DNA of 43,145 bases from a virus, in IMG/VR virus record IMGVR_UViG_3300030333_002164, positions 9,918-53,062 of that record; one strand, given 5' to 3'. Shown here one piece after another: positions 1,556-32,153 of this stretch (within the stretch, counting starts at the first letter, position 1; every line of letters begins with the position of its first letter). The notes beneath the pieces are model-generated. The model was not told the DNA's origin. It was given only the letters and a program-made list of their open reading frames with translations, and did not search any database. The translations under genes and the position numbers were made by a program.

Positions 1556-1559
1556 AAGG

Positions 1560-5729: not shown

Positions 5730-5734
5730 CTATA

Positions 5735-6961
5735 TCAACTTACAACGTTAATTGTTCCTTGCATCGCAGCATGGAGTGTACATTGATAATAAAGAGTGGT
5801 CGGAGCATCCATAGGGACAGTCCAATAAAGAACAGTAGTTCCACTACCACTTTGTCCAGTTGTGTAAGGAGTACCACTTAAACCTTGAGTACTTTGAATT
5901 CTGAAAGGATGAGCACCACCTTGAACACTATTGTCAAAAGCATACGTAAACCCTCTATGTACATAGATGGTTGGGTCATTTGTTGCTGCAGAAAAGCCTG
6001 GTCCATTAAATGTGAAATCAGACGATCCATTAGCATTTATTTCCCACCAAGTAATCGGACTACGTACTATAGTCCAACTAGTTCCATTATAAAACAGCGA
6101 ATCACCTTGAGTAATACCAGTAACATCTGTATCTGTTAAAGCAGCAAATGTTGTAGTTATTGTTCCATCAAAATTAACTGTTAATGTATCACCAGAAACA
6201 GCAGTACTGATATTTGTACCACCTGCAATAGTTAATGTATCTGATTGACTATTAGCAGTTGTAGATCCTGCATCAGAAGAAACTGTAGCAAATAAGTTAA
6301 TAGAGGATATACCAGAATCATCAGCAGCAGGAACCCACTTACTAGAAGCAGAACTCCATTTTAAAACTTGATTATTTGTAGGTGCAGCAGTTGTTGTATC
6401 AACGTCTGCTAAAAGATCAATACTTGAATATTGTGTTGCTATTTTTGCCTGTACATCTCCAGCACCACCAGCAGTAATATTGATATTTACATATGGATTA
6501 TCATCACCATCAACTGTGAAAAAATATCCTGTATATGTTGCTGCAGTAGGTGCGGATCCTAATGCGGAATATTCGTTTTTATATTTAACTTTAGTCGGCA
6601 TATCAATGGTATTATCAGTACCATTAAATGTGCTAGTTGTAGTTCCATTAGAAATAGTTACATTACCTGTTCCATTCGGTGCAATAACTATATTTCCATT
6701 AGAACTTGAAATGATAGAATTTCCATTAACATCCAATCCAGCCGTCAAATTAGTATAGTCTGACGGTAAGAAAGTTGATCCATTATAACGTAGTACTTGA
6801 CCAACAGCAGGGTTAGTAACACTAACAGTCAAACTAGAACCGTTTCCGATTGCAGTATAGAGTTCATTAAAATTGTCATTAATTTTATCGCCACCACCTC
6901 GCAGGGTATCCCCTGTGTTGTCGTTAGCCGTTGAACCTAAATTTAGAGCTTGCTTAGCCAT
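5735..6961 (-). CDS. Fibre-like virion protein with C-terminal cupredoxin-like domain (408 aa)
   Basis: The N-terminus has TANDNTGDTLRGGGDKINDN, followed by FNELY: the kind of short adapter seen at the start of many phage fibre proteins. The middle is Thr/Ser/Gly/Asn-rich with repeated segments such as QVLRYNGSTF and QVLKWSSASSKWVP, typical of beta-structured fibre shafts. The C-terminal 100 residues look like a cupredoxin: RGFTYAFDN, GGAHPFRI (H351), YWTVPMDAPTTLYYQC (C394), then H397 and M400, ending GTINVVS. The gene begins its own late unit, with CATAAATA at 6982-6989, and is followed after 5 bases by the 1,389-aa gene. It sits where T4 carries genes 9-12 relatives, but no specific T4 homologue was recognised. 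A host-binding or spike role is inference. Confidence 0.75.
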   Translation of the reverse strand: MAKQALNLGSTANDNTGDTLRGGGDKINDNFNELYTAIGNGSSLTVSVTNPAVGQVLRYNGSTFLPSDYTNLTAGLDVNGNSIISSSNGNIVIAPNGTGNVTISNGTTTSTFNGTDNTIDMPTKVKYKNEYSALGSAPTAATYTGYFFTVDGDDNPYVNINITAGGAGDVQAKIATQYSSIDLLADVDTTTAAPTNNQVLKWSSASSKWVPAADDSGISSINLFATVSSDAGSTTANSQSDTLTIAGGTNISTAVSGDTLTVNFDGTITTTFAALTDTDVTGITQGDSLFYNGTSWTIVRSPITWWEINANGSSDFTFNGPGFSAATNDPTIYVHRGFTYAFDNSVQGGAHPFRIQSTQGLSGTPYTTGQSGSGTTVLYWTVPMDAPTTLYYQCTLHAAMQGTINVVS

Positions 6962-6981
6962 TAGTTGCTACGATTTTTAGT

Positions 6982-6989: not shown

Positions 6990-6998
6990 GTGTTATTA

Positions 6999-9900
6999 TT
7001 ATAAGACTTCAGGATCTACTAACTCTTCACCATACAGGCTTAAGTCAGGAGCAGTCCAATCATCTGGAACTACAGTCTCAACTGCTATTTCTGGATTCTT
7101 ATATCCTGAACCAGGATTACTTAATTCAACTCCAGCAACACCGACTAGAGCACGAATTTGACCTTCAAAACCAGATATAGAGTCAATTCTTACAGTTGGT
7201 CTAGAAGTATATCCAGAACCACCAGAAGTAATTTGTACGTCCTTAAGGAACCCAGAAGTGATCACTGCTTGTGCCTTAGCATCTTGTCCAAATACAGATC
7301 CAAGATAGTCAAAGGTGATTAGTGAGTTTGAAGACTCAATAACAGCAACCTCTCTGTCGGAAGTCTCACCTTGTATGGCGATAAAGTCACCTGGTTCAAC
7401 TGGAGGTACAACCTCAGCAGCATCAACGTCTGCTTCAGAACCAACGTACGAGAAGGCAACGAATGTGGATCCCACACGAGGAATTTCAGAGAAGATAATT
7501 CTAGAACCAACAATCTCAAATCCTACGCCTGGTTCCTGAATAACACCATTTAGAGAAACGATGATATTATTTTCTGGACGTATAGTAGAAGATTGAACAC
7601 CATCCGTTAAGGTTAGTGAGTAGAATACTTCGTTACGCTTAAGGTTGAAGGACTGACGTAAGGAGTCGAACTCGAATGAAATATCATCCAATTGTCTCAA
7701 CTTACCTACGTAGAACCCTGTAAATGATGCCCCTAAATCTGGTGCTTCTGTAAACTGTATAGTATCTGAGAACGCTGTATATGCGTTAGAAGCACCTGGA
7801 GGTTGTAATATACCATTAACAAATACCATTAGATGTCCTTCTGGATCTGGTAGGTACTGTGTACCATTTTGTTGTGTTAACTTAAATGATGTTGTAGTAC
7901 CATCAAATCCTTTAAAGGAACGCTTAACACGTGCTTTAAGATCTACTTGAGCAGAGATAACTGACTTATAACCATCAGGTCCAATAACTCCATCCTTAAT
8001 ATCAAATGATCCTGCAACACCACTTAGATATAATCTCTTATTAACACCTATCGTACGTATATCTTGTACACGTGCAGCTGCTGCTCCAGCAGTTGTAACC
8101 TTAGTTGCGATAGTTGCATAACCAACTGGGAATGATGTGTTTCCATAATCACCAACTGTATCACCGTTGGTAAGAGTTCCTTGATATTCAACTACGTATA
8201 CGTAGTTATTAGCAATATCAACCTCAGAAATAATTGCATAAGTGTTTAGATCCTGTACACCACCAGTAATCTTATAAAGTCTATTACCTACGGTAAAGGA
8301 ATTAAGACCACTAATGATAGTTAAACCAAGTCTAATATTACCAACAGAAGCAATTTGATCACCAACAGAAACATCAAGACCAGCATACTTAATAACATCA
8401 AGATACTTCCTAGATTCTGAAGGATAAACAACTGCAGTTGTCTCAAATGTACCTAGAAGAGTTTCAGTATCAACTGTTAAAGTACCACCAGTATTATCAA
8501 GTATTGCTGCTTCTGCCTTCAAGAATCCTGTAGGTAATCCAGTAGCACCACTTGTATATCCCCTAAATGGAATGTCATTAGTAAATCCACCCGTAAGATC
8601 AATAATCTGCATACGATCTTCAATAGCACTAATCTGAGCAGTTGTGGAGTTTGTAGCACCAACAATAGTGTCAGTAATTGCCCAAGGACCTGCAGTAATT
8701 TCTACATCAAGATACTTGTAGTTTTCATCTTCCCAGAATCCATAAACCTTACCAGTAATTGATCCATTACCTTGTTTAGAGACATTCTCATTCATAGTGA
8801 ATGGACCGTCTGTAATATCACCATCAATACGGAATCTTTGGAAGATCTTAGCAATCTTGCCCTCATTAAGATTTACCGATTCTACCTCTGCGTAGTTATT
8901 ACTCTGAAGACCATACATAAAGTCTGCAGAACTTAATCCACCACCTACACCTGTAGGTATAGATCTAGTACCATAAGTCTTAGTTGGAATAGTAATATTA
9001 GTGTTAGTTGTTATAGTTGTATAAGTTGTATCAACTGCTAACTGTTTTCTAATAATACCAAGTAGATAACGAATTATTCTACTAATAGAATTCGTATCGT
9101 ATTGACCTGCTTTTACAGAATCAAAGAACTTATAGAAACTTGCATTCGTAGAAGGTGAAGTTAAAGTATTATCAAGTGACTTAATTGTATACTCCTCAAG
9201 AAGATTTAAAGCATATGTCTTGATGTTATACTCATCATCAGCATAGAATACTTTACTAATACCAGAAGTGTAAGGATCTAAAACGTTCTTATTAAGTTTA
9301 GAACCCCAAACATACAATCCATCAGTACCATTACCTGCATAAGATTGTTGTCCTGTCGCATTATTAACCTGAACTTTAGTTCTCATTTCGGTGAAACCAA
9401 AGGAGAACGTAGTTGTAATATATGCTCTATACCATCCATTACCATAAGGAACAGCACCGAATGCATCAGCAGTCATACCATTTTCAGGTGTGAATACAGA
9501 TCCAGTAGTTCCGTTAGAAAGGTTAAGATCAAAGAATATATTCTGTTCAGCAGCAGTACTATCATCAAGAGTTATCTTTAATCTAATTGATGTATATTCT
9601 TCAGCTTTAACGAAAACAGAGAATGTAAATTGCTGTGTATCATTATCAATTGTTACAGCACCTTCGTCAAATTTATTAGTGGTATCATCCCACTTAATAT
9701 TCTCATCATCAAAAGTATCGTATGCTGTTAGATTATAATTTCTATACAGAGTATGAAGACCAGTTGTTGAAGTTGCTGCTAATTTTTCAGCAGTCATAGT
9801 GGAGTCTGGTGAAGCAATTACATCATCAGTAATTACCAACTCAGTACCAACCCAATTAATTGTATGCTTTTCTGGGTTAGTGTATAAGTTTTCACCAGAA

Positions 9901-12900
9901 ATCTGTCCAGTAATATTTGAAGTAATACTTCTAGCAGTAGCAAGAGTCTTAACATTACCAGGAGTATTGTACCAAACATAAGCACCACTTACGCCAGCAG
10001 TAGAAACAATTGCTTGTGCGTTAGAAGTATAACCTTCTATTCTATCTGCTATTCCCCAAGGTAGTCCAGTAAAGTTTCCAATAACTAAGAAGTTATTTTC
10101 AGGATTAAATTCTAGAACTTTTGCAGTTCCACCATTATCGGATAATACTAATTCACCTTCTGTAAATGTACCAACAACATCATGAATAGTAACGTTATAT
10201 GCAACTGCAGAATCTGTTACATCAGTTGTTATAATGTCATGAACAAGGTCTAAAACAAGTTCCTCGATAAAGGCGTTGTATGTCCAAGAACCAGCACCAA
10301 ATTGAGTATTTACAATAGTTGTAATTTCTTCTTTATAGTAATTGTTGTTATAAAGAATATTCTTAGAAGCACCTCTAGCAATATCTCCTCCAGGAGAGAG
10401 CATATTAACTGCAGTATCAACTAAAACTCCGATCCTATCAACTACTAATTGAATATTTGTTGGAGTTATAGTATCTCTATATGCTGTTTGAGTAGTGTAA
10501 AGAGCAGCATAATTAGGATCACTCTGTCCACTATTAAGATCATAAAGTAAATTCTTAGCAGCTCTCTGACACATAATCTTAAGTTGCTCTATAGAATATA
10601 ATGTAGCAAGGAGTTCAGTTTCTACCTGATCTATCTGTCCTTGTGTATCAAGATATTTTTCAATCGCAGAAATTGTACTATTATTACCACCTGTTTGTAA
10701 GTCGGAAATAATTCCTAAGATAATAAGTCTTAAATCTCTCTGACATGTTGCTTCACCATTAGCACCATCAGGATAATTAAAGGCACTATAGTTAACGTTA
10801 TTGAGAGGATATGTAAATTCTGCAGTAGTAAGTCCAGTAATTTCTTCTGCGATATACTTTCTGTTAAAGTAAAGTCTATCGGCAGCAGTAGCATAATCTA
10901 AAGATGTAGGAGCAATAAGATCATTAACAGCAGTAATTAAGTTATCGATAGCAGTCTTAACGTTTGCACATCCACCAGCATCATTTGTAATACCCCAATC
11001 ACCAACAATAATATCATCAGTATTATCATAAGTTAGATCACCAGTAATTGCTTCCTTCATATAAACGCCAAGACGTTCATGAGCATATACAGACTGGAAT
11101 ACTTGTAAACGAATATGCTGTAGTTCATCATTAACACCAAGATAGAACTTAGCAACATTAATTGTATTAAAGTTACCACCAACCTCAATATCTTTAATGA
11201 ACTCTTGAAGAATTAATGCTAGGTCTGTCTTACATTGTAAGGTACCATTACCAGATCCGTCACTATTTCTAGGCATCTCTAGAGCAAGATCTGGATATCT
11301 TTGAAGCATATCATATGATGCTTTATCTGTAATAGGTCCAGCATTAGCACGTAGTAAATCAGCAGCATCACGGAATCTATCAAGAGTAGTCTCATCAATC
11401 TGATTTGCGTAGATAACATCAGTACCAGCATCATGATAAGATACTGGGAATGGAACTTCAAAATAAGTATCTACCTTACCACCAAGGAATTCATATGCAG
11501 GTTCATTTTTCCTTAAACTTCCCAAGTAATCTGTAGGAACAGCAGCATTTGCAGCAGTTAAAGTATCCGTAAGGATAGACATTAAGTTCTTAGCAGTACT
11601 TTGTACATCTGTACAATCTGCAGTTGTATAATCAAGAACTGTAACTCCATTAGTTACTGAAGAAACCCAAGTATGTCTGTCAAGAACCTTCTTAACACAT
11701 CCATAATCAGCACTCGCAAATGTATGAGTAGTATTTGGACTATAAGAAACACAATTGGTTACAGATGATATCCATGTATGTGCATAATCACCACCAGTTT
11801 GTACTACTGCTCTTGTAATAGCATTAGTAGTTGCTGAAATAAAGTTGTGTGCAGTTATATTAGTAGAAGGAATTACATCCAATACCTGTATATCAAATGT
11901 ATTAGTTTGTACATTTGAAATAGGAATCCACTTATTGCTTACAGGATCAGTTACTCTAGGATATGTGTGGTTTGTAGCATAATTATCATGAGCACAAGTA
12001 AATGTAAGTGAGTTATCAGCAATCTTAATGTGCTCACCGTTAACCATACCATGACCAGCAACAGTTACAGTCATAACACCTGTTGATGGGTTATATGCTA
12101 TTCCTGTTGGTGTGTACTGATTAACTGTACCAACAAAATTATGTACTGTTGTATCAGTAATTGCTCCTTGTCCACCATTAACATTTACAGTAATTGTGGT
12201 AGAAGATGTAGCAGTAATGGCAACAGGAATATTGTAAACATAGTCGCTACTTGAACGAGGATATTTCTTCTGAGTTGTATTACCATCACCATTGTAATCA
12301 CAAGTGAAGATAAGAGACTCTTTTGCAAGTTTAATATTTGTACCTGTAGTTAATCCATGATTACCAATAGTAAGAACCATATCACCCGAAGTTGGGTTAT
12401 ATGTTGCACCTTGTACATCAAATCCTTTAACTGGTGATGCACCAACGTTAACTGTAATTATACCAGTCTGCTTGCGAATACCATTTTCTTTAGCAGATTT
12501 GAATGTATGAGTAGAAGTATCTGAAGAAATACCGACATTAACTTGGAAAGTATCAGTAGCAACGTTAGAAACTTCTAACCATCTTCCACTTGGGAAATCA
12601 AATCCCTTACGAGGATATGCATGGTCAGTAGTAGTACCATCAAAAGCACATCTCATAGTCAAAGATTCATCAACAATCTGGATATAATCTCCGTTAGAGA
12701 ATCCATGAGATGCACTAGTAATAACCATAACACCAGTTGCAGGTGTATAAACAGCACCAGTTGCAGTCTTAGAAGTATATCCTACATCAGTAACAGGAAT
12801 AGATTTAGTTCCACCATAAGGATCTGTTGCACGAGGATAATCTTTCTGAGAACTATTACCATCCATTCCACAAGTAAACTTCAATCCAGAGTTAGCAATA

Positions 12901-15900
12901 GTAATGCTTGATCCCTCACGAATACCATGCTGACCAATAGTTAAGGTCATTTCACCTGTTTCTGCATCATAAGTAGCACCTGTTGGAGTAAACTGTACAT
13001 TTGTACCAGCAGCACCAACGTTAACTGTGATTGTCTGATCTTCTGGTGCGGTTGATTCTGCAGTATCTACTGCAGTAATAGTAAGTTCTCTATTAGCAGC
13101 ACGTGTATCATGATTTGCACGAGGATAGTACTTAGTGGATTGTCCATTATCCATAGTACATGTAAATCCTAGAGATTCTTCATCAATAAGAATCTTATCA
13201 TTAACTGCTAAACCATGACTAGGAATCTTAATTACTAAGTTTCCGTTTGCAGGGTCATAAGTAGCAGACGTTGGAGTAAATTCCTTATACTTATCAAATG
13301 TATTTCCAGTACCAGGAATAAATTTACCAACATTAACTGTAAATGTATTTGTATCGTACTTAGTGATTGCTAATGCAGAATTAGCAGCAGGGTCTGTAGC
13401 ACGAGGATAATCATGATTAGTAGCATTATCGTCAATATCACATGTAAATCTTAAAGCATCAGCAGCAAGAGAAATTGCAGATCCTTGTTTCTTAATACCA
13501 TTTGCTACAGCAGATACAAAGGTGTGTGTATAATCACCACCAGTATGAATTATTGCTCTAGTAACGCAATTGGATGTAGCAGAAACAAAGGTATGAGTTG
13601 TTGTATCTGTAGAAGTACCAACATTAACAGTAAATGTATCTGTGGTAACGTTAGAAACAATCAGATAGTTATCATATGCAGGGTCAGGTGTTCCAGCATT
13701 TGCACCAGTACCTAAAGCACGAGGATAAGTCTTAGGTTGACCAGAACCTCCAGTTGCACAGTAGAATGTTAATGAATTTGGAGTAATCTTAATAGCATCT
13801 CCATTTTCAAAACCATGATTCTTAATAGTTAAAGTAAGAACTCCTGTTGCAGGAACATAACCAGCAGTACTAGGTGTATATGCATTAGTACCAGCGATAA
13901 ATTCATGTTGATAACTACCACCAGTAACTAGAGCATTTTTCTTAGCACTTACAAATGTATGTGTGTAAACACCGCCAGCTCTTATTATACCTCTAGTAAT
14001 AGAATTGGCAACCGCAGATACAAATGAATGAGCATCAGTATTTGTCGAAGGAGCAGTTTCTAAAACATTAACATCAAATGTATTTGTAGCAACGTTAGAA
14101 ATAGTTAACCATCTTCCACTAGCATAGTCTGTAGATCTTGGATAATCTTTCTGTGCAGCAGTACCTGAAGCACCACCAAAAGCACAACTTAGTTTAATAG
14201 CACCATCATCAATCTTAATTTGTTCACCATTTTCCATACCATGACCATTAACTGTAATAGTCATAACACCCGTTGTTGGGTTATATGCAGCATCAGTAGG
14301 TGTTAACTTAGTTGGAGCAACCCAGTTATGAGTTGTTGTGTCGGAAGAAATACCAACATTAACTGTAATTACACCAGTTTGTCTCTTAAGACCATTTGCA
14401 TAAGCAGACTTAAATGTATGAGCACTAGTATCGCTAGAACGTCCAACATTAACATCAAATGTATTTTGAGTTATATTAGAAATTGGAAGCCATTCTTGGA
14501 AGGAAGGATCAGTACGTCTTGGATATTGGTGATCAGAAGCATTACCATCCTTAGCACAAGTAAATGTTATTGACTCAGGATCAAGTTTAACAGCATCATT
14601 TGCTTTTATAAGACCATTAGTAGTTGCAGACTGGAATGTATGTGCAGAAGCATTAGAGATTGCTGACTGACCGAAGAAGTAGTTACCAACATTAACTTCA
14701 AAACTATTTGTGTTTACATTAGAAATAGGCAACCATTTTCCACTAATAGGATCAGTTGATCTTGGATAAGCATGATTAGTTGCACCACCATCTAAAGCAC
14801 AAGTGAATGTTAATGATCCGTCATTAAGTTTAACTCTATCACCCTCTTGGAAACCATGACCAGCAATCGTTAACCTCAAAATACTAGTTGTAGTATTAAA
14901 TGTTGCCCCAGTTACTGTATGGTTTGTAGAAGAATTGAAATTATGTCCATTAACTGTAAGAGTCATAACTCCAGTTGTAGGAGCATAAGTTGCTGCAGTT
15001 ACTGTGTGGTTTGTAGAACCTACACTCTGAATTGGAGTAGAAGTATTATAAGTTGGGTCAGCACCACCTGGATAGTTAGATCCACTTGAACGAGGATAGA
15101 ACTTATTAGTAGTATTACCATCACCATTATAATCACAAGTAAAGGTTAGAGATTCTTTAGAAAGTCTTATAGAATCACCTGCTCTAGTAATACCATCAGT
15201 TGAAGCTTGTACAAATGTATGTACATAATCACCACCAGTAATTACTGCACCAGCAGTTGCTGAAACAAAGTTATGAGCAGTAGTGTCTGTAATAGCACCC
15301 TGACCACCGTTTACATTAACTGTGATTTGAGTAGCAGTTTTTGCTGTAATAGGTAATGCAGTATTATATGCATAGTCAGCACCGTTATTGCCTGTTGTAG
15401 AGGCACCTGTAGACCTTGGATAAGTCTTATTGGTTGTATTACCATCACCATTATAATCACAAGTAAAGGTTAATGAATTATCAGCAAGTTTGATGCTATC
15501 ACCAATATCAAATGAATGTGATCCAATCGTCATTTGTAGATCACCTGATGTTGGATCATAAGTAGCAGCACTAACGTTGTAATTAACGATAGGTGAAGTT
15601 CCAACATTAACTGTAAATGTATTGTCAGTTACTTTCGTAATTGCCAAATACTTGTTGTAAGATGGATCTGTAGTTCTTGGATAAGTCTTCTGAGAAGTAT
15701 TTCCATCCATCGTACATGTGAATGTAAGAGAGTCAGGAGCAAACTTAACTCTATCACCAACTGAGAATCCATGATTTGCAACAGTAACTTCTAGTAAACC
15801 ATCTGCAGCATCATAAGTCGCATTAGATGCTGTATATGTGGATCCACCACGAAGATAATGAGTACCAATCGTCATCAACATATCACCTGTAGTAGGTGTA

Positions 15901-24900: not shown

Positions 24901-27900
24901 AATCTCAAATGATCTATGTAATACTGACCCTGTTTTGCTTTAGCAAAATCTGTTGCACCAGAACCCCATCCAATCTGATTACCGAAATAAAGATCCTTAG
25001 AACCTAAAGATGTACCTGCTAGTGTACCAGAAATAACTTGAATACCATTAACATATGCTTTAAAATCATTACCTGACTTACTCAAACCAATAACTTGCCA
25101 AGAATTATCAGCAAACATAGTTGTTTGAGTAGATTCTGTTGGAGTTGCAGAGTTTAATGCTGTTGAGCTATTAGTAATTGCTAATTGTAATTTACCATTA
25201 CCACCAGTTCCTGAACTATAACCCAACCATAATCCACCAGTAGCATCTTGTGCTCCACCAATACCTATTAAAGTTTGTACATCCTGTGATAAAGTTTGAG
25301 ATTCTGCAGCATTTTTAAAGATAAAGAACTCTATAGTCCAATCGCCAGCAAGTTTGGTTCCTAAATCAGTTCCTGCTACTTTTAAGTAAGAATTTTCCCA
25401 AGTAGAATTAGATCCAGCTGGTTGATAACCTAAAATCTTAGCAACATTATCTGCATAAGTTATAGCAGAACTACCACCAACAGAAGTTAATGTGTAATGA
25501 CCTGTAGTATCAACTTGTTCACCACCATCAAAATTGAATATAAATTCATTTCTATTCCAAGAAGTCTGTCCAAATACATGAACATCACCAGAAGTATCAA
25601 CTTCTAAAGTACGAACTGATATACCTTCAATATTGTTCTTATCAAATTCATTTATAGTATGATTCTTAATTATACCATCATACCCAAGTTTAACAGTACC
25701 TACTGTCTTATGCTGATTAGTATTATTTGTTCTTGTATATGCAACGTTAAGATCACCAAAAATATCAATAGCACAAGAACTTGCCATCTGAATATCTCTA
25801 CCTGGAGCAACATAACGATAATTCCAGATTAAATCACCATCAGTTTTTACTTTACCAATCCAAAAACTATCTTTATCAGTAGCATTAGACTTAAGTCTGC
25901 AAGTAGCAACTAGATAAACTTCTTTAAATTCATCAATACAAAGACTACTATCAATTAGAGAATATAATGAATTACTGTATTCTTTAATGAATTCTATTGT
26001 AATTACACTAGTACCTATACTTGCCTTACCAAATGCAACGTTAATGTCAGATGCGTTAGTATCTGCAGCAGTTTCCATACTGAAATATACATCAGTTCCA
26101 TCAATAACAATATCAGTAACTTTTTCGGAACTAGATGGAGATGCTAATTTTCTCTTAACCGAGAAACTACCTGCTGTGTCTATAGAAGCAATATATGCAT
26201 CATAAGGAGAACTGGAGTTAGTATTAGTATAACCTCCAATAATAAAACGAGTATCAGAATATTTTTTAATTGCTGTTACATTATCAGCACGAGTGGCACC
26301 AGAAATACCAGCATATGCTCTTTGGAAACTTAATGTGGCACTTAATCCATTAGCAGCCTGAACATACTTACAAAGTATGATATCAGGGTTATATGCAGCA
26401 AGTAAAGTACTATTTGGTTTATTAATACCAACTACCCAAATATTATCACCATCTACCTCAATTTTTTGGAATTCTGTATAATTTTGACCATCAGAACTCT
26501 CTAATGTCTTCTCCCATTCTTTAACACCTGTCGCAGATAATTTTGATACAAATGCAACTTCATTACCATTAGTTTTCTTAGTTACACCACAAGTAAAGAC
26601 TTCTTTATTAGTATTAATGTATATGTCATTAACTCTAACATAATTGTTATTTTCAATCTTAGAAACATAATAATCTGCCTTTTTGAATACCTGAGGATGA
26701 CTTAAAATAACACGAGGATTTGTAGTATATCCAGAACCAGAATTTAAGATATTAACAGTATCAATAGATCCAACAGATGTTACAACTGCTTGTAAATCTC
26801 CCTGTGTACCAACACCATCAATTGTTATAGTTGGAGGAATATCGGTATTATATCCAGATCCAGTCTGATTTATTGTAATTTCTTCAATACCTCTAAATTG
26901 ACGAACAACAAATGTCTTATTTGTGTTAGTCATAATAGGTGTATAGTCAATAAAGACACTATCACCAGCAATTAAGTTATGAGGTACAGAAGTCTTTAAT
27001 ACACCGAAATTAGATCCACCAATATTTTCAAATCCATATGTAGAAACTGTTTCACCCTTAATTCTTGAAACACGAGCAGAAACACCAGTACCATCAGTAT
27101 CAGTATTATCAAATACTAAACGGTCATTAACCTGATAGTTTTTACCTGGGTTTTCAACTGTAAATCCAGTTACAGAAGCATCTTCAAACTTAGTAGTAGT
27201 CTCAACTTCAATATCAACCTTAGAGTCAAATTTAACTTTAGGGAAATAATCAAATAATTGTAGAGGTGACTCCTCAAATAATTGAGCAGGATTAGCAGTC
27301 TCATCTGCATCTATAACACCATCTCTATTAGTATCTTCTACTTCAAATAGGATAATATCTCCATCTTCTGTAGTTAGAGCATTTGTAGAAGCATTTGGAA
27401 CCCTTGTAACATCAATATCAACGTTTTCATAAGGATCTCTGTATCTTACAACACCAGTAGGAATATTTTGCTGAACTGCATCAGCACTAAGGTTCCAAGT
27501 ATCTACAACAGAGTTGAAACTTGGTCCTAGAACATATGGGAAGACTGGATTACCAGCTTCAGTAGCATCAATAGTTACAAAATAACAATATCTACCAGCT
27601 GAATACTCTGGTGTTTTACAGAAACGACCATTATACTGGTCTAAATCACCTAAACCAAAAGTATACTCATAGTCTTCAACAAAATTACCTGCTGGTTCTT
27701 CAGTTAAAAGAGGTCCAGCAGATCTAACTGGATATGGATTAGTTGTAACATCATATACTAATGCAGGTTTTACTCTATATGATGAATTTAACCTAGTAAC
27801 AGCAGATGCTTGATTAGTTGGGTCAGAATATCCATAAGGACCATAAATTGGATTACCATCAAATGCCCATCCAATAATAGGTGAGTGTACTAATTGATCT

Positions 27901-30900
27901 TCTTGCTCAAGAATATTATTTTGAGCATCTTCATATAAGTTATCACCAAGGATATACCTCATCTTCTGAGGGTTTGAAAGGTGAGCATACTCACCACCAT
28001 ACTCATTATTATACCCTTCAAATACTGCTCCTTTAGCAGCGTCGAATGTTGATTGTGTTTGAAGGTTATAAGTCCATTGGAATACAGATGGTGTAAATGT
28101 AGCACCTTGACCAACAGAATTCAAATTAATAATTGTTGTTCCTTGTGTATATCCAATACCTTTGTTAATGATAGTAATACCAGTTACTCTACCAGCATTT
28201 TCACCATCAGTATCAATAGTTGCTCTTGCTACAGCACCAAAACCAATACCCTGAATAGTAACTTCAGGTGCAGTTGTATATCCAGAACCAGCAGAAATAA
28301 TAGCAATAGAAATAATTCTTCCATTATTAACAATTGCCTGAGCAACAGCACCAGTACCAGAACTCAACGTTACTGTTGGAGTTGATGTGTAAGATTCACC
28401 ACCATTTGATACTGTAATTTCTTTAATTGGACCTCTAACAGATGCAGTACCAGTTGCTCCTACTCCTCCTCCACCAACAATAGTAATTGAAGGTTGTGAA
28501 GTATATCCAGTACCACCAGTATTGATCAATATTCTTGATACAACACCTTTTGTAATAATAGCAGTTGCAGCAGCACCTGAACCGCCTCCACCAACAATAG
28601 AAACAAGTGGAGAAGTTGTGTACCCAGAACCCCCTGCAGTGACTGTGATCTCAGAGATAGAACCGTTAACAGTTACGTCAGCAGTTGCTCCTGTTCCACC
28701 ACCACCTGAAATAGTAATAGCAGGAGGAGATGCAGCATCATAACCAGAACCAGCATCAGTAATAGAGACTCCAGTTACAGCACCAAAAGTTTTGGTTAGT
28801 TTTGATTTATAAGACCATATAGAAACACCATTAACCCATGTACCAACAGGACCAGGAGTAATAGCATTTTTGGTCGAAATTGTGGTAGGATTTTTAGGGA
28901 ATCTATTTAATTTCCTCTGGTTTCCTGGTAAAAGTGCAGATCCAGGGAAAGGTCCGATTTCATAATTGGGGATACCCGTGGAAGCAACATAAGTGTAATT
29001 ATCATTAAAGAAAGTATTTTGAACATTAGTCGTATAAGGTCCAATAACGTTTAAAATAGCATTATTAATGGATTTACCTTTATTAAGGTCAATAGATACG
29101 AGAATATTACCCTGTGGAACAACAGTAGCAGGTTGAGGTAATTGATACTGAAAAACAGTATCACTATCTCTCGATGTAACCAAGAAAGTTCCGTTATAGA
29201 TGATTGGGTTAGCACCATAAATGGTAACTTGATCTCCAACTAACAAACCGTGAGGATTAGAACAAGTAATAGTAGCAGATTGGTCATTAACACCACCAAA
29301 AGTTACACTAGAAACTTGAATTAATTTTTTAACGTTATACAACCAAGTTGTTAATTCTGATCCAGTACCAGTACCACCAAGTTTAGAAACTGCTAATTTA
29401 TCACCAGGAAGGTAATAAGAACCAGTATCTGTTAATGTTGTTTGTTGAGCATCAACAATACCAACAATATTCATTACAACTTCTTGTAATGTACCTTTAT
29501 TAAGGTAAACTTTAAAGTTTGATTTTACTTCAGTAGCAGCATCCCAATCTTCAACAACACCATTATAAGAACGAGTACACTCAATAAACTGGTTTAATGA
29601 TTTCTCTTTATATTGAACAACTTCACTATCACCTATAATAAACTCACCGTTCCTTTCTGGCCAACCAATTGTAGAGTCAACCGTAATGATTGAGTCGGTT
29701 GTACTCAAAGGTTCAGCAAGATTTGTCTTATAAGGTACGGTAAACGTCCCATTAATAGTTTCTTCTGAAAGAATAAGTTCAAAAATTTCTACCTCAGAAG
29801 TTTTAATCGAAATATAATTTTCTACTAAAGCACTTGCTGCAGCAACATTAGGATCTGCAACATCAGCATCTTGTATTAATAATGCATCTTTAATATTTCT
29901 TGGATCACCACTAACTAAAGTAGCACGAAGAATAGTATCGATAGACCAAGTAGCATCAGAAGGTTTGATAATTTGGTCTTTTGGATAAGAAATACTTACA
30001 GTTTCACCATATAAGAGTTTAAACAAATAAGCAATACTAAAAGATGTACCCTTAGAAGAGTAGAAATCTTTAATTGTCTTAATTGATGTTCTTACATCAA
30101 TTTTAGTATAATCTAGTTCAGGAACATCTGGTAAAAACTGTTCTGTATACTTATCAAGTAATCTCTTAACAAAAAGGGCATCAAGACATTTAACAGGTGT
30201 ATTTACTATTGCAGATGCAGCAGTAGTATTATTTGAGAATACTGCATTACCATCTTCAGTATATGAAGTGATACCACTTGCTGCTCTAGCACATCCTTCA
30301 AATTGTGCTTTACTATATCCAGTACCAGACTGATTTACTGTAAATCCAGTAATTTCATTTAAACCAATCTCAGCAGATGCTTTTGCTGAAGGAGGATCTT
30401 GAATAACAACTTTTGGAGGATTAGATGCACTATATCCCGTTCCAAAAGAACTAATATTGATATCAATAATCTTACCGTTGAAAATAGATGCTGATGCTAC
30501 TGCTCCACTTCCACCAATATAAGTTCCTTGGTCATTTACTCTTTCATCAACAATATAAACAGAAGGTATATCATCATACCCACTTCCACCACTTAAAAGT
30601 TCGATATTAATTACTCGTCCATCACCATCAACTTGAGTTTCTAAAACTTGAGCACCAACTGGGTCAATAATAGCAATTCTTGGTGTAACTTCGTATCCTT
30701 GTCCAGGATTAGCAATAGTAATGCCAGTAACTTGACCATCTGTTAAGACTGCTCGTAATGCTGCCTTAATTCCATTAGTACCAGTAGGTTCATCAATATA
30801 AACTTCTGGAATGGTAGTATATCCAAATCCTTGTGCAGTAATGGGAATTGTGCCTGTGACTTGTCCATTAGTAATGGTAGGAGTGCCTAATGTAGCACCT

Positions 30901-32153
30901 CCAGGCTGCCTAAAAGTAAGTCTAGGTGTGAATGTATATCCACTACCAGAATTAGTGATTTCCAGTCCAGTTACAGCACCATCAGTAACCGTAGCTGTAA
31001 GGGTTGCTTGACTAGATCCTGCTTTTGTTGGACTTTCTACTTGAACAACTGGTGGGTTTGTAGAACTATAACCTTTACCACCATCTAATAGAGAAACAGA
31101 CTTAAGACCATTAACCAAAGCAGTAGCAGCACCACCAGAACCTTCTGTAGAACTAATAGAAACTTTAGGTGGATATTCAAATCTATAATCTGAACCTGTT
31201 GTACTAGTATTAATGTCAGTTAAATTACCATTATCATCAACACGAGCATAACCAATTGCACCAGCACCAAAAGAAGGGACTGGTGCTTCAATAGCATATA
31301 AAGATAGGAATCTACCGTTTAATGGAGCATCTCTGAAGATGAATTGATCTCCATCAACCCAAAAATCAACTTTTGGTGTTAAAATACGCTTATCGTAGAT
31401 TGCAATTACATATTCATCAACAATTGGTTCATATTGAGCACCATTTCTAGTAATGGAGAACTGTTTTTTACCATCTCCAAAAGAATTAGAAAGATTATCA
31501 ATACCAACAATAGTATTTTCAATAAAACCGCTTAAAAATGTAATATATGTCTCAGAAGCATTATCAGCAGGTATTTTTGTTCTAGGAGCAGTTGTAAATA
31601 CAATATTTGTCCCATCTACAGTATAATCAATATTAGGAACCTGTAATTCACCATATACACTAACAATTAGGTGTTGTGCCGATACAGGAGCAATAGGATT
31701 CTCTTGTGATGTAAGTGCAAACCTTACTGTACTACCATCAAAAGAGTTTATGGGACTAGCAAGACCAGTCCACTTTAATTTTACCTGTTCATAAGAAATA
31801 CCTGGACTTAACGCAATACTAGGAGCAGCAGTTGTTTTCTCATAGTAAATTACTTCATCGCCAATAAGAATACTACCATTCTCAGTTAAAAAATCATCAA
31901 CAGACTCTACAACAATCTTATCATCAGTAACACTAACCGCTTCTACAACTTTCGAGGCACCATCAAGAATTCCAATATCTAATTTATCGATATCCAGATA
32001 TTGAAGAAAATTATTAACAATATTCTGTCCTAAACCTTGTTTTTCCTGAGATTTATAGTAATATTCAATAAATTTATTGAATAATGGATACTCTGACCCT
32101 ATAAAATCAGGGGTTTGGGAAGAAACCGCCTGTGAGACCTTATTGATATTCAT
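6999..32153 (-). CDS. Giant gp7-like baseplate/fibre protein (8,384 aa)
   Basis: One uninterrupted frame, 6 bases after gp6, in the slot of T4 gene 7. Three blocks resemble the end of T4 gp7 (about 1,030 aa): YPLFNKFIEYYYKSQEKQGL (residue 22 on), DFYSSKGTSFSIAYLFKLLY (about 695; T4 FYSTKG...YKFLFKVLY), and YYYQDFSYAVKS...WKE...VHPASFKVFGE (about 3530-3570; T4 YYV.KI.S...WK...VHPVGF). Between and after them: GSGYT repeats at about 300-625, 1120-1350 and 3260-3325; a YHYH domain ([11 protein letters not shown]) at about 1420-1560; probable beta-propeller at 1820-2200; LamG-like domains at about 2210-2430 and 4120-4365; a YPR repeat array at 4370-6840; helical C..D/GGN repeats at about 4465-4530 and 6930-7310; a jelly-roll-like domain at 7420-7640; NGxxQ...P modules and a last GGSGYT at the C-terminus. 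It probably anchors in the wedge and projects outward. Function of the expansion is inferred. Confidence 0.85.
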   Translation of the reverse strand: MNINKVSQAVSSQTPDFIGSEYPLFNKFIEYYYKSQEKQGLGQNIVNNFLQYLDIDKLDIGILDGASKVVEAVSVTDDKIVVESVDDFLTENGSILIGDEVIYYEKTTAAPSIALSPGISYEQVKLKWTGLASPINSFDGSTVRFALTSQENPIAPVSAQHLIVSVYGELQVPNIDYTVDGTNIVFTTAPRTKIPADNASETYITFLSGFIENTIVGIDNLSNSFGDGKKQFSITRNGAQYEPIVDEYVIAIYDKRILTPKVDFWVDGDQFIFRDAPLNGRFLSLYAIEAPVPSFGAGAIGYARVDDNGNLTDINTSTTGSDYRFEYPPKVSISSTEGSGGAATALVNGLKSVSLLDGGKGYSSTNPPVVQVESPTKAGSSQATLTATVTDGAVTGLEITNSGSGYTFTPRLTFRQPGGATLGTPTITNGQVTGTIPITAQGFGYTTIPEVYIDEPTGTNGIKAALRAVLTDGQVTGITIANPGQGYEVTPRIAIIDPVGAQVLETQVDGDGRVINIELLSGGSGYDDIPSVYIVDERVNDQGTYIGGSGAVASASIFNGKIIDINISSFGTGYSASNPPKVVIQDPPSAKASAEIGLNEITGFTVNQSGTGYSKAQFEGCARAASGITSYTEDGNAVFSNNTTAASAIVNTPVKCLDALFVKRLLDKYTEQFLPDVPELDYTKIDVRTSIKTIKDFYSSKGTSFSIAYLFKLLYGETVSISYPKDQIIKPSDATWSIDTILRATLVSGDPRNIKDALLIQDADVADPNVAAASALVENYISIKTSEVEIFELILSEETINGTFTVPYKTNLAEPLSTTDSIITVDSTIGWPERNGEFIIGDSEVVQYKEKSLNQFIECTRSYNGVVEDWDAATEVKSNFKVYLNKGTLQEVVMNIVGIVDAQQTTLTDTGSYYLPGDKLAVSKLGGTGTGSELTTWLYNVKKLIQVSSVTFGGVNDQSATITCSNPHGLLVGDQVTIYGANPIIYNGTFLVTSRDSDTVFQYQLPQPATVVPQGNILVSIDLNKGKSINNAILNVIGPYTTNVQNTFFNDNYTYVASTGIPNYEIGPFPGSALLPGNQRKLNRFPKNPTTISTKNAITPGPVGTWVNGVSIWSYKSKLTKTFGAVTGVSITDAGSGYDAASPPAITISGGGGTGATADVTVNGSISEITVTAGGSGYTTSPLVSIVGGGGSGAAATAIITKGVVSRILINTGGTGYTSQPSITIVGGGGVGATGTASVRGPIKEITVSNGGESYTSTPTVTLSSGTGAVAQAIVNNGRIISIAIISAGSGYTTAPEVTIQGIGFGAVARATIDTDGENAGRVTGITIINKGIGYTQGTTIINLNSVGQGATFTPSVFQWTYNLQTQSTFDAAKGAVFEGYNNEYGGEYAHLSNPQKMRYILGDNLYEDAQNNILEQEDQLVHSPIIGWAFDGNPIYGPYGYSDPTNQASAVTRLNSSYRVKPALVYDVTTNPYPVRSAGPLLTEEPAGNFVEDYEYTFGLGDLDQYNGRFCKTPEYSAGRYCYFVTIDATEAGNPVFPYVLGPSFNSVVDTWNLSADAVQQNIPTGVVRYRDPYENVDIDVTRVPNASTNALTTEDGDIILFEVEDTNRDGVIDADETANPAQLFEESPLQLFDYFPKVKFDSKVDIEVETTTKFEDASVTGFTVENPGKNYQVNDRLVFDNTDTDGTGVSARVSRIKGETVSTYGFENIGGSNFGVLKTSVPHNLIAGDSVFIDYTPIMTNTNKTFVVRQFRGIEEITINQTGSGYNTDIPPTITIDGVGTQGDLQAVVTSVGSIDTVNILNSGSGYTTNPRVILSHPQVFKKADYYVSKIENNNYVRVNDIYINTNKEVFTCGVTKKTNGNEVAFVSKLSATGVKEWEKTLESSDGQNYTEFQKIEVDGDNIWVVGINKPNSTLLAAYNPDIILCKYVQAANGLSATLSFQRAYAGISGATRADNVTAIKKYSDTRFIIGGYTNTNSSSPYDAYIASIDTAGSFSVKRKLASPSSSEKVTDIVIDGTDVYFSMETAADTNASDINVAFGKASIGTSVITIEFIKEYSNSLYSLIDSSLCIDEFKEVYLVATCRLKSNATDKDSFWIGKVKTDGDLIWNYRYVAPGRDIQMASSCAIDIFGDLNVAYTRTNNTNQHKTVGTVKLGYDGIIKNHTINEFDKNNIEGISVRTLEVDTSGDVHVFGQTSWNRNEFIFNFDGGEQVDTTGHYTLTSVGGSSAITYADNVAKILGYQPAGSNSTWENSYLKVAGTDLGTKLAGDWTIEFFIFKNAAESQTLSQDVQTLIGIGGAQDATGGLWLGYSSGTGGNGKLQLAITNSSTALNSATPTESTQTTMFADNSWQVIGLSKSGNDFKAYVNGIQVISGTLAGTSLGSKDLYFGNQIGWGSGATDFAKAKQGQYYIDHLRLRNRAVVPTVPTDIATLPPVATYAFTYDWTDDAWFTTNLNRYDYIDYVAWGLKVDKNADATRLGDKGLQTNTQIGFKRTAVTPVTGSVLTIANVGYALGEAGFQSLDFDDTTTTMSQDTQTLTYTNDIWGSRTATVPSPGSQKLSVNAVVKDRYYFKVTNTVKIDNVQELTINQAFNFTVGTKLVLNNDSGSFVNSGYIIRKDTVNNKIYLAVNNNAWSNDLNTGQLITEQFNEQSTYKIVGPIPADINEIVGYTFAQVDNTTPGTFDIDLDDYDLDGTVADIPATLSSLTAAGTGYANTGDNVATTTNGSGTGLTVDFTASGGNVSSVSIDTPGSGYKIGDVVTITTGGANATFTIATCTGDLDSFAKFKPYSDDDYSVRIDEVAGGSAYIVGSVITINSGDITFNASYSTAQITGLTGVLKISLITTLKKILQVTAVANSNEVYVITGTNHYLSAGEMIYVDGNPSQTVDSVVYDEYDGAFPIDTVVSPLEFTYKLPQAAITEPATTAANVNIFVKSPVLKMYYGHQYLFDLSHSSLLGGNLSFSKDNLYKLEYSFNSIERVGTPGVTGEGQPNPTVKLKVDDTVVTNISYYFDPSRTGSDSPVIPGSYLDVVDSPYKGTFAISSTAGETITKGPDIFKFPLLNEPEGDAQVSTASYSTSSVKAVGAINNIRIVNPGGFYTKLPIVTNIVSTRIIERVAINSPGTEYAVGQYNAVPIAGDGEGGLVAITVADGQDDEGVTIPGQIQKVEVTSPGKGYTTATIDVEAIPGILGAGLTGSGAELEVVIPSAGSQASIFTKGDKVGKIKKLKNNNFGYDYPHDYTLRPEITFPLNCQLTSTSILSSITVTNPGSGYSLAPAVVITGGGGSGAIAEASIKNGRLDTIIVKDPGAGYSSTPTVSLRSSFNYVVNLDLGLLQFAYPHGIVNGSEVTLNVVDTGDGAEYPLAAGATGRLNSTTTYYAISGSANSLEDDQLKLAITASNAALGDALSFVNAGTGRQQVLTESFGGAAEANVITSTFLEGELVYQGDSLDVATATGYVSTNSGWQIGPRILKVVDYTGDFASGQKITGVISKSSGIISDLKVARGVLEIGSITKTTGQFIDDVGKPSEIIQKIQDSYYYQDFSYAVKSAVSISDWKEILIKNVHPASFKVFGELNLNEYGQIPNKETFFQLTKSVELAQEAVVPNIQNFALVEPIYSEFNNTEVLFRQKRLTSSENILTSVVQRVDDISNLFDGERIAFPLTVDGNNVVANANQLMIVLNGVVQNPETAFNIQQDSIVFSEPPQPPASVKYANITINQIQTVKLTFNNISGIFPSVGNQLVGSSSAAKLTVTSVVGNDIFGYITDNTFIIGELVNVSATGFSATLLTQTDVTNIGLFVFGENVTNLEGNTAKVEQINLQRGQETPLAKLRYSVGTSTAEIEVVPVTGDEAALPANTFVPTKKYQFGSEIFLVNTVTDNSNSTTLGVTRAQDGTAAVAQLQGTPVYGTEILVTNALTLSKTAGTYQSTPGLFDIQLNDVIIGAASGVVAQVTTTSAYQDPTTNEFIGQVNISEGSSFFGLLFNRITSTSYPNVVLDDISKSQISIVDYTDNATSFDQSFPANEQINNFILPYDNAVGTFSEGENIRNYKIEYGNNSGDFTATENARVRKLSFTDKQGDGFFNTGQVIRTRDTKAEVIGYNQARSIVYLGKIGRTQANGQDYFDFKFTGNAQLDTAQKKYGTTSLLLDGANDFVRNTANQSEIAFGAGALTVELYVRPTAAALSGTATIIDTRAAGATEVAIRLYLQAGQIRWNVNGSDLVNSGATTLSADTWYNITYVRSSTTGKIYLDGVEVGTGTDSSTYVAKPITIGADYANTNGFTGHIDELRISNTNRYNAAFTPIVGIFQGDANTKVLVHFDGVDGQTFTQDWSGAEGFTNGEFFNNDAIASSSRFAGVHTYDGGTSSNALTFNDASQKDVTAATYNHVTGDLELTIGSHSYTTSNTVTIGANKLSFTCALDNNATSHTYPRATDPAYLTALAISAVTSTTITVNVGAAGSPRGFTGNTQRYYNAADLIIANKDFIAKETVYLVNQKFPNFTTINGDANCEDDVRDILDALVADLRNGGNNKIWDATALYIDRTDTNNIKLNHVETEINETIWAYGKANEIVEYIATNSLWDIQGDHGLLQKTDTTITDSSNPTYTQLTPTGAEYTASTGELKMTVNGHGLVGPTSLTATGATYTASTGVLVVTSNNHNLANGDKVQLEDNSLTFTCSMDGNKTEHTYPRSSDQASTGWLTVSNSQTNTFEINVGKSPLIVYNPTSATYDGTTGHLKMQIGDHILTPKTNIRMAKESLSFKCSMDGLQSIKKYPRSVDPIYDQSIPILYDGELHTATGASYVPTTGKMTITCGRGLTPTDVSYLATVGVMKVTVPNHGLVNGDSVRIADNALTFTCGMDDHYSEHSYPRTTDPKSGLSIAVANVTENTFDINVGTSPIVSLTPNSGSYDPTTGMMTLGFPTNHNLSAGTSIRLKKESLKFSCAFGGASGDAAIKAYPRTTDPFYSTSLLIESVTNTTITVQVLTTVPSTNTDAHTFVSAETGAVTTGGDYVHKFVRAVTNGITTPKHGFANKDRIKITDGSLVFDCALDGNSTEHSYPRSTDPYSGRWLSISNVTDLTFDVNVGISPDTSLHTFKSAAPNGIVKRDGSITLDIGKSPQIGYDVTTATYDAATGDMVLTVSGSHNLTTAGALQIADNGLSFTCTMDGNATTHSYPRLTDPARKNALKIKAVGTSNLTAAAGTTYNPTTGILSITSNNHNLSAATTKSVTDAQYNPGNGNLILTSAAHGFVNGDRVRIADNSLTFTCGKDNHGSTHTYPRSTDPASDAWLFVQNVSTNKFTVNIGKSQDLSDHRFISATASNIQKAEDAVKFDNESLRFTCAKDSNSTNHDYPRATDPVANQWIPVISKTTNTFDVFVGRANDDSAGAHTFVSAVSNGIKKQTGTVTVNVGITPTITHNPSAVTYTPTTGDMLMTIGTHYLRGGSTYTASNATYDAADGLLEVTVANHGFSVGDRVKFAPDSLTFTCTMDGNTSQKTYPRTTDPSYNKYLAITKVTDNTFTVNVGTSPIVNYNVSAATYDPTSGDLQMTIGSHSFDIGDSIKLADNSLTFTCDYNGDGNTTNKTYPRSTGASTTGNNGADYAYNTALPITAKTATQITVNVNGGQGAITDTTAHNFVSATAGAVITGGDYVHTFVQASTDGITRAGDSIRLSKESLTFTCDYNGDGNTTNKFYPRSSGSNYPGGADPTYNTSTPIQSVGSTNHTVTAATYAPTTGVMTLTVNGHNFNSSTNHTVTGATFNTTTSILRLTIAGHGFQEGDRVKLNDGSLTFTCALDGGATNHAYPRSTDPISGKWLPISNVNTNSFEVNVGNYFFGQSAISNASAHTFQSATTNGLIKANDAVKLDPESITFTCAKDGNASDHQYPRRTDPSFQEWLPISNITQNTFDVNVGRSSDTSAHTFKSAYANGLKRQTGVITVNVGISSDTTTHNWVAPTKLTPTDAAYNPTTGVMTITVNGHGMENGEQIKIDDGAIKLSCAFGGASGTAAQKDYPRSTDYASGRWLTISNVATNTFDVNVLETAPSTNTDAHSFVSAVANSITRGIIRAGGVYTHTFVSAKKNALVTGGSYQHEFIAGTNAYTPSTAGYVPATGVLTLTIKNHGFENGDAIKITPNSLTFYCATGGSGQPKTYPRALGTGANAGTPDPAYDNYLIVSNVTTDTFTVNVGTSTDTTTHTFVSATSNCVTRAIIHTGGDYTHTFVSAVANGIKKQGSAISLAADALRFTCDIDDNATNHDYPRATDPAANSALAITKYDTNTFTVNVGKFIPGTGNTFDKYKEFTPTSATYDPANGNLVIKIPSHGLAVNDKILIDEESLGFTCTMDNGQSTKYYPRANHDTRAANRELTITAVDTAESTAPEDQTITVNVGAAGTNVQFTPTGATYDAETGEMTLTIGQHGIREGSSITIANSGLKFTCGMDGNSSQKDYPRATDPYGGTKSIPVTDVGYTSKTATGAVYTPATGVMVITSASHGFSNGDYIQIVDESLTMRCAFDGTTTDHAYPRKGFDFPSGRWLEVSNVATDTFQVNVGISSDTSTHTFKSAKENGIRKQTGIITVNVGASPVKGFDVQGATYNPTSGDMVLTIGNHGLTTGTNIKLAKESLIFTCDYNGDGNTTQKKYPRSSSDYVYNIPVAITATSSTTITVNVNGGQGAITDTTVHNFVGTVNQYTPTGIAYNPSTGVMTVTVAGHGMVNGEHIKIADNSLTFTCAHDNYATNHTYPRVTDPVSNKWIPISNVQTNTFDIQVLDVIPSTNITAHNFISATTNAITRAVVQTGGDYAHTWISSVTNCVSYSPNTTHTFASADYGCVKKVLDRHTWVSSVTNGVTVLDYTTADCTDVQSTAKNLMSILTDTLTAANAAVPTDYLGSLRKNEPAYEFLGGKVDTYFEVPFPVSYHDAGTDVIYANQIDETTLDRFRDAADLLRANAGPITDKASYDMLQRYPDLALEMPRNSDGSGNGTLQCKTDLALILQEFIKDIEVGGNFNTINVAKFYLGVNDELQHIRLQVFQSVYAHERLGVYMKEAITGDLTYDNTDDIIVGDWGITNDAGGCANVKTAIDNLITAVNDLIAPTSLDYATAADRLYFNRKYIAEEITGLTTAEFTYPLNNVNYSAFNYPDGANGEATCQRDLRLIILGIISDLQTGGNNSTISAIEKYLDTQGQIDQVETELLATLYSIEQLKIMCQRAAKNLLYDLNSGQSDPNYAALYTTQTAYRDTITPTNIQLVVDRIGVLVDTAVNMLSPGGDIARGASKNILYNNNYYKEEITTIVNTQFGAGSWTYNAFIEELVLDLVHDIITTDVTDSAVAYNVTIHDVVGTFTEGELVLSDNGGTAKVLEFNPENNFLVIGNFTGLPWGIADRIEGYTSNAQAIVSTAGVSGAYVWYNTPGNVKTLATARSITSNITGQISGENLYTNPEKHTINWVGTELVITDDVIASPDSTMTAEKLAATSTTGLHTLYRNYNLTAYDTFDDENIKWDDTTNKFDEGAVTIDNDTQQFTFSVFVKAEEYTSIRLKITLDDSTAAEQNIFFDLNLSNGTTGSVFTPENGMTADAFGAVPYGNGWYRAYITTTFSFGFTEMRTKVQVNNATGQQSYAGNGTDGLYVWGSKLNKNVLDPYTSGISKVFYADDEYNIKTYALNLLEEYTIKSLDNTLTSPSTNASFYKFFDSVKAGQYDTNSISRIIRYLLGIIRKQLAVDTTYTTITTNTNITIPTKTYGTRSIPTGVGGGLSSADFMYGLQSNNYAEVESVNLNEGKIAKIFQRFRIDGDITDGPFTMNENVSKQGNGSITGKVYGFWEDENYKYLDVEITAGPWAITDTIVGATNSTTAQISAIEDRMQIIDLTGGFTNDIPFRGYTSGATGLPTGFLKAEAAILDNTGGTLTVDTETLLGTFETTAVVYPSESRKYLDVIKYAGLDVSVGDQIASVGNIRLGLTIISGLNSFTVGNRLYKITGGVQDLNTYAIISEVDIANNYVYVVEYQGTLTNGDTVGDYGNTSFPVGYATIATKVTTAGAAAARVQDIRTIGVNKRLYLSGVAGSFDIKDGVIGPDGYKSVISAQVDLKARVKRSFKGFDGTTTSFKLTQQNGTQYLPDPEGHLMVFVNGILQPPGASNAYTAFSDTIQFTEAPDLGASFTGFYVGKLRQLDDISFEFDSLRQSFNLKRNEVFYSLTLTDGVQSSTIRPENNIIVSLNGVIQEPGVGFEIVGSRIIFSEIPRVGSTFVAFSYVGSEADVDAAEVVPPVEPGDFIAIQGETSDREVAVIESSNSLITFDYLGSVFGQDAKAQAVITSGFLKDVQITSGGSGYTSRPTVRIDSISGFEGQIRALVGVAGVELSNPGSGYKNPEIAVETVVPDDWTAPDLSLYGEELVDPEVL
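7030..7220 (-). repeat. C-terminal GGSGYT modules of the giant protein
   Basis: Two modules, ITSGGSGYTSRPTVRI and LSNPGSGYKNPEI, close the giant protein. They match the internal arrays and the copies in neighbouring proteins. Confidence 0.6.
11640..19050 (-). repeat. Array of about 22 YPR repeats in the giant protein
   Basis: This coding stretch encodes roughly 2,470 residues of degenerate tandem repeats with a mean period near 110 aa. A unit reads: Y.P.TG.M.LTI..HG (often NHGL or GHGM), then GD.I.I, then SL.FTC, then YPR.TDP, then L.I..VT.NTF.VNVG, then HTF.SA..NGI. I counted 22 Tyr-Pro-Arg signatures, nearly all preceded by a single Cys in FTC or FSC. Some units are shortened, and the array is interrupted near 18400-18760 by a helical segment. 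Such arrays suit a long fibre or whisker with beta-rich domains. Confidence 0.8.
22190..22370 (-). repeat. GSGYT module pair in the giant protein
   Basis: Two modules with VTNPGSGYSLAPAVVITGGG and VKDPGAGYSSTPTVSLRS, of the same type as the larger arrays near the N-terminus. Confidence 0.6.
28100..28790 (-). repeat. GSGYT array, second block of the giant protein
   Basis: About seven consecutive modules of 30-40 aa. The common unit is I.I...G.GYT..P.V.I.GGGG.GA.A.A.V..G.V. Examples are DAGSGYDAASPPAITI, AGGSGYTTSPLVSIVGGGG and NTGGTGYTSQPSITIVGGGG. The regular strand-turn-strand pattern suggests a beta-solenoid or stacked beta-hairpins. Confidence 0.7.
30290..31250 (-). repeat. GSGYT array, first block of the giant protein
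   Basis: About eight modules, including LDGGKGYSSTNPPVVQV, NSGSGYTFTPRLTF, NPGQGYEVTPRIAI, SGGSGYDDIPSVYI and SFGTGYSASNPPKVVI. The block lies between the N-terminal gp7-like block and the FYSSKG block, so it splits the gp7-like region. Confidence 0.7.

Follow-up and report, generated by a model that had tools for sequence, protein, structure and literature searches.

What occupies the place of T4 gene 7 in the baseplate cluster of a T4-like cyanophage, and can a single protein of 8,384 residues be the counterpart of T4 gp7? T4-like cyanophages rank among the most abundant ocean viruses. In T4, six copies of gp7 are present per baseplate; the protein joins two gp6 chains in each of the six wedges and connects the wedge core to the peripheral gp10-gp11-gp12.

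Published statements on gp7 in cyanophages diverge. T4 gp7 was said to be absent, with VrlC as its replacement (PMC7029224), and gp7 was assigned to the non-cyanophage core (PMC3037559). The morphogenesis part of a core/quasicore list, taken by itself, does not show gene 7 (PMC2993671). GenBank annotation names gp7 in P-SSM4 (7,312 aa), P-SSM2, P-HM1 and S-SM2, and a protein 'similar to gp7' or 'gp7-like' in P-SSM3 and S-CRM01. In a 2021 survey, P-SSM4 gp7 ranked first in size among bacterial-virus proteins (PMC8553790). Neither a description of a split core or insertion series nor a cryo-EM paper on a cyanomyovirus baseplate was found in the open-access literature.

Locus and gene organization

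The window, i.e., the whole stretch of DNA analysed, comprises 43,145 nucleotides (positions 9,918 to 53,062) of the 53,062-base IMG/VR record IMGVR_UViG_3300030333_002164, a contig of T4-like cyanophage type. The gene (6999..32153, minus strand, denoted (-) below) is a single ATG-to-stop open reading frame (ORF) of 8,384 aa with zero internal stops, and was classified as a gp7-like baseplate wedge protein by its match to phrog_701. It lies directly after gp6 and ahead of the gp8-side wedge genes. The minus-strand gene order is phrog_719 wedge protein, PAAR, heme oxygenase, SET-domain ORF, gp25, gp6, the giant gene, gp9-like gene, 1,389-aa wedge protein, gp8. Immediately upstream are the gp6-like wedge protein (32160..34193 (-); T4 gp6 match, E=3e-26) and, before it, the gp25-like wedge protein (34194..34613 (-); profile match). 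Immediately downstream follows the gp9-like connector (5735..6961 (-); profile match), then the 1,389-aa wedge protein (1560..5729 (-); phrog_708) and the gp8-like wedge protein (1..1521 (-); profile match), which runs off the window. The initial annotation had described the ORF, its gp6 and gp8-side neighbours and three gp7-like blocks, all of which were confirmed; the blocks lie at residues 22, 697 and 3537-3570.

A SET domain (PF00856, E=5e-11) was found in a 98-aa ORF (34613-34909 (-)) between gp25 and heme oxygenase, an unexpected content for a phage baseplate operon. The heme oxygenase itself (34950-35633 (-); PF01126, E=1e-69) also lies inside the baseplate cluster; this enzyme is a typical auxiliary metabolic gene of cyanophages. 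The late-promoter core ATAAATA occurs four times by motif count (1548-1554, 6982-6988, 34346-34352 and 39713-39719, all (-)) where about 24 are expected, on the coding strand every time and each as CATAAATA; two of the sites precede the start codons of gp8 and the gp9-like gene by approximately 21-33 bases. TATAAATA was found 0 times in the same kind of count, with 7.5 expected. The scarcity of ATAAATA suggests that stray late promoters are avoided, and the distribution of the motif suggests that the giant gene is co-transcribed with gp6.

Core blocks and homology to T4 gp7

Four short motifs mark the blocks in the giant protein: YPLFNKFIEYY at residue 22, FYSSKG at 697, YYYQDFSYAV at 3537 and VHPASF at 3563. 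Core block 1 (residues 1-60; 31974..32153 (-)) is the counterpart of the helical segment of T4 gp7 around residues 645-689, as recognized via pf16-type intermediates. Profile comparison places core block 2 (residues 641-790; 29784..30233 (-)) on T4 gp7 724-799 and core block 3 (residues 3500-3620, HPA motif at 3564; 21294..21656 (-)) on T4 gp7 866-897. In T4 gp7 the anchors fall at residues 664, 734 and 884. The alignment covers about 250 residues of that protein, more than the 150-200 first assumed for the T4 blocks.

The profile-profile comparison proposed in the initial annotation was carried out with hhalign and bore out the relationship. The joined blocks aligned in order with residues 645-897 of T4-family gp7 (97.7%, E=1.4e-12); this alignment was cut out using the window's own blocks and is best taken alongside the PDB search with uncut homologues given below. 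Block 2 alone reached 96.5% and block 3 alone 73% (E=3e-5). Block 1 alone was not significant, though correctly placed (0.6%); it matched pf16-type proteins with 96.7%, and T4 was reached through such intermediates only. For natural homologues of 500 aa, the match to T4 gp7 took in blocks 1-2 and extended past them (95.8%, E=7e-9). The seven control baseplate proteins of T4 (gp5, gp6, gp8, gp9, gp10, gp11 and gp53) all remained below 1%. When four uncut short homologues (approximately 500 aa) were used as a profile against all PDB chain sequences, T4-type gp7 was recovered at 1e-6 and 1e-5, with no other significant match.

Direct search is weak, since the match of the giant to phrog_964 (T4 gp7) is limited to 28 residues of block 2 (E=7e-5); the match to phrog_701 has E=0. 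Residues 679-728 pass the cut-off of the Pfam wedge family PF23786 (29.3 bits vs 27). Pf16, Yut3, Melnitz-3, HTVC008M and phiN3 also match PF23786 above the cut-off, and the 283-aa protein of Ackermannviridae matches it end to end. The Pfam models Gp7_helical, Gp7_5th and Gp7_6th, which T4 gp7 matches, were not matched by the giant at E<=1, and the protein is therefore filed as a gp7-core homologue and not as a strict T4-type gp7. The N-terminal 640 or so residues of T4 gp7 have no counterpart ahead of block 1, which starts at residue 1 to 22. A structure model of an 896-aa homologue was weak (pLDDT 59.6); gp7 ranked first in Foldseek (3.7e-7 and 1.2e-5), but with TM <0.1 and by a program that also uses sequence, and the low-confidence model is taken as support only.

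A separate gp7 gene, which would have counted against this assignment, was found neither elsewhere in the 53-kb record nor, since that record is a genome fragment, in 15 complete relatives, in which matches to the core blocks were confined to one ORF. The central GSGY part of the profile matches other ORFs in these relatives too, as a promiscuous module would. Judged from the alignments, the three blocks are shown to be homologous, in order, to T4 gp7 in the region 645-897. The view of a gp7 whose blocks were pushed apart is upheld by sequence, synteny, graded intermediates and the single gp7 in the relatives; the alignments support a protein in which three gp7 core blocks lie thousands of residues apart, split by inserted and appended modules.

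Inserted modules and repeat array

The insert at site A (residues 61-640; 30234..31973 (-)) was delimited by windowed phmmer and the anchors and includes GSGY repeats at residues 305-615. Further GSGY repeats were found by windowed phmmer at residues 1119-1357, 1746-1820, 2703-2770, 3231-3326 and 8287-8358. The insert at site B (residues 791-3499; 21657..29783 (-)) contains, according to Pfam and phmmer, GSGY repeats and a YHYH domain (residues ~1331-1531; 27561..28163 (-); PF14240, E=3e-15 and 3e-7), the latter as named at first reading. The 1,389-aa wedge protein (1560-5729 (-)) also carries YHYH and GSGY modules; as the two nearby genes have these in common, modules seem to be exchanged among baseplate genes that lie close together. 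No Pfam match was obtained in the giant for the 'propeller' module.

The C-terminal extension (residues 3621-8384; 7002..21293 (-)) was delimited by comparison with relatives. It contains a LamG/concanavalin-like domain (residues 4161-4290; 19284..19673 (-); PF13385, E=9e-20), which had initially been placed between the blocks; the significant domain lies after block 3, and only a sub-threshold match was found between blocks. It is followed by 22-24 FTC...YPR repeats of approximately 95 aa (residues 4372-6775; 11829..19040 (-)), identified by repeat detection and from two other contigs. Of the roughly 4,800 repeat residues originally proposed after block 3, about 2,400 (4372-6775) are indeed repeat array; the rest consists of other modules. 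The array is interrupted once by a module of about 100 aa, which recurs at residues 6965-7043 and 7087-7237. Residues 7508-7622 (9288..9632 (-)) resemble Rcc01080, the head spike fibre of a gene transfer agent (phmmer vs PDB, E=8e-9).

The FTC...YPR unit recurs in proteins that carry a cyanophage tail-fibre annotation. Fold prediction for two repeats gave a small all-beta domain with moderate pLDDT (73.9), for which no PDB match was obtained at E<=0.001. The copies are alike at 60-79% in DNA, and TRF detected no repeat array in the DNA of the giant. Two other metagenome contigs contain the stretch of residues 3540-8374, at 92% and 90% identity and with the full set of 22 YPR motifs. An assembly artefact or a recent tandem amplification was ruled out because the copies have diverged and two other contigs carry the array.

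Relatives and size range

Apart from T4 gp7, 21 phage proteins with lengths of 283-8,384 aa carry the three blocks in order, as does one ORF of 9,580 aa; the anchors are collinear in 22 gp7-position proteins. Across the relatives examined, the gp7-position gene lies between gp6 and gp9/gp8. Sizes at this position are 283 aa in Ackermannviridae, about 500 in pf16 and Yut3, 1,032 in T4, then 1,454-5,195, 6,064-7,351, 8,384 in the giant and 9,580 in IMG/VR. In this last version (IMG/VR 3300026292_000006, record positions 16810-45549 (-)), a gp7-like ORF, the three blocks are all present together with 28 YPR motifs, so the window protein is not the size extreme.

Block 1 is separated from block 2 by 68-70 aa in T4, pf16, Yut3 and phiN3, by 165-178 aa in Ackermannviridae, a pelagiphage, a Methylophilales phage and the smaller cyanophage forms, and by about 670-680 aa in the giants. 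Between blocks 2 and 3 the distance is 81 in IME250, 150 in T4, 317-879 in other small forms, 1,164-2,423 in mid-size cyanophages and 2,785-2,904 in the giants. The stretch from block 3 to the C-terminus measures 148 residues in T4 and 13-236 in small forms; mid-size cyanophages reach up to 1,807-2,684, and the giants have 2,588-4,820.

The giant is collinear with S-SM1 and S-MbCM100 over residues 1-4353 and ~6680-8384, mostly at 60-75% identity, and its final 1,700 or so residues are approximately 61% conserved in S-SM1. The intervening stretch of about 2,300 aa, absent from both, is the FTC...YPR array. By repeat detection 24 units are present in the giant, 14 in P-SSM3, 7 in P-RSM4, 2 in S-SM1 and 1 in S-MbCM100; on these comparisons, close relatives differ in length mostly through repeat number.

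The first 120 residues of the giant are matched by 427 phage records and block 3 by 486, and matches to the giant are dominated by Synechococcus and Prochlorococcus phages. With the blocks in about 430-490 phage records, the arrangement is not peculiar to the phage of the window. The one apparent gene fission among the relatives was discarded, since the break coincides with a run of Ns at a scaffold gap. Pelagibacter phage HTVC008M has genes annotated as curli csgF, csgG and csgB (7562-9557).

Virion proteins and probable host contact

Orthologues of the giant are known from virions. S-SZBM1_208, with a predicted mass of 724 kDa, was detected by virion mass spectrometry with 71 peptides and 13.5% coverage (PMC9146016); its ORF was verified at 6,619 aa. 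The S-SM1 orthologue T4-GC969 is a virion protein (PMC3037559), the S-CREM2 orthologue ORF122 yielded 91 unique peptides in virions (PMC10665884), and the database record of S-SCSM1 labels ORF15 a virion protein. S-PM2d081 (3,048 aa) acquired an early mutation during coevolution with Synechococcus (PMC9910659); the orthologue S-PM2p084 matches it in length (3,048 aa). The modules of carbohydrate-binding type, the variable repeat number, the recurrence of the repeat unit in cyanophage tail-fibre proteins and the S-PM2 mutation point indirectly to a host-facing role; the extra mass is likely to be a host-contacting fibre or arm, and it is plausible that the protein acts as the fibre scaffold initially described.

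Alternative explanations

A chance likeness, in which a large adhesin or fibre gene carries short gp7-like motifs, is hardly credible: the direct T4 match is short for each block, but block order, anchor spacing, intermediates, controls and synteny argue against coincidence. It is also very improbable that gp7 was lost and replaced by VrlC, the giant being an unrelated structural protein. Such a replacement has been claimed for cyano- and pelagimyophages (PMC7029224), and gp7 stands only in the non-cyanophage core list (PMC3037559). This reading does not fit, because these genomes encode VrlC separately, downstream of gp8; furthermore, the giant next to gp6 holds the gp7 blocks.

Given homology, the inserts could still form a compact baseplate skirt or ring, serving as reinforcement or contraction trigger, instead of an arm or fibre that contacts the host. 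Some weight is lent to this by conservation at 60-75% of much of the inserted sequence among relatives, which is not the pattern of typical host-range tips; the YHYH, LamG and phage-fibre-like modules, a repeat number that ranges from 1 to 24 among relatives and the coevolution mutation in the S-PM2 orthologue make it unlikely on balance. That the chain is cut in assembly, so that the blocks act as separate polypeptides and the C-terminal part as a separate fibre, appears improbable. It would agree with published mass spectrometry, which gives peptides only, and with the partial families 19630 and 18802 in PHROGs, but the gene is a single ORF in every annotated relative examined.

Proposed role in the baseplate

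Very probably the giant is the gp7 counterpart of the T4-like cyanophage baseplate, with core blocks that would fold back together, peripheral arms and growth at fixed sites. The three blocks would re-join in space as the wedge core at the gp6 dimer, as in T4, and the stretches between and after them would loop out of this core. The GSGY, YHYH, LamG and other beta modules, together with the 24-copy array, probably build large peripheral arms, six per baseplate if the stoichiometry of T4 applies. These arms may extend the baseplate rim, contact the host and take over the work of T4 gp10/gp11/gp12. A small ancestral core would have grown at three fixed positions, namely the two gaps between successive blocks and the stretch after block 3.

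A wider proposal is offered tentatively, at somewhat below an even chance: in marine Kyanoviridae gp7 could be the main host-contacting organ, a chain of approximately 0.8-1 MDa in six copies per baseplate, with loops and repeat arms in place of gp10, gp11 and gp12 and a reach set by repeat number, and gp7 could belong to the universal T4-like core, from which it has so far been left out.

Comparison with known systems

The giant is a large member of a known, widespread and under-described family and is not categorically new. On the present evidence, and contrary to some papers, these phages do have gp7, and it is among the largest bacterial-virus proteins known. The series from 283 to 9,580 aa maps the insertion-tolerant sites of an essential core, and the adsorption machinery of cyanophages and the evolution of the baseplate become directly testable.

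Among known proteins, the gp7 of P-SSM4 (AAX46881.1, 7,312 aa; phrog_701) has the same position and size class as the giant. The P-SSM3 orthologue (phrog_701), also of 7,312 aa, contains the three blocks and shares approximately 75% identity with the giant across residues 2-3789. Both are 1,072 aa shorter than the window protein, mainly because the latter has more repeats (22-24 vs 14 in P-SSM3). T4 gp7 (1,032 aa; PDB 5hx2, 5iv5) is likewise encoded after gp6 and its core, residues ~645-897, is homologous to the blocks of the giant; its extra domains are the N-terminus (1-640) and domains V and VI. Unlike T4 gp7, the giant begins at the core, into which about 600 and 2,700 aa are inserted and which a tail of 4,800 aa follows. 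The 283-aa protein of Ackermannviridae (PF23786) and the 503-523-aa proteins of pf16 and Yut3 contain all three blocks in order, as in the giant, and represent a near-minimal core without the large modules.
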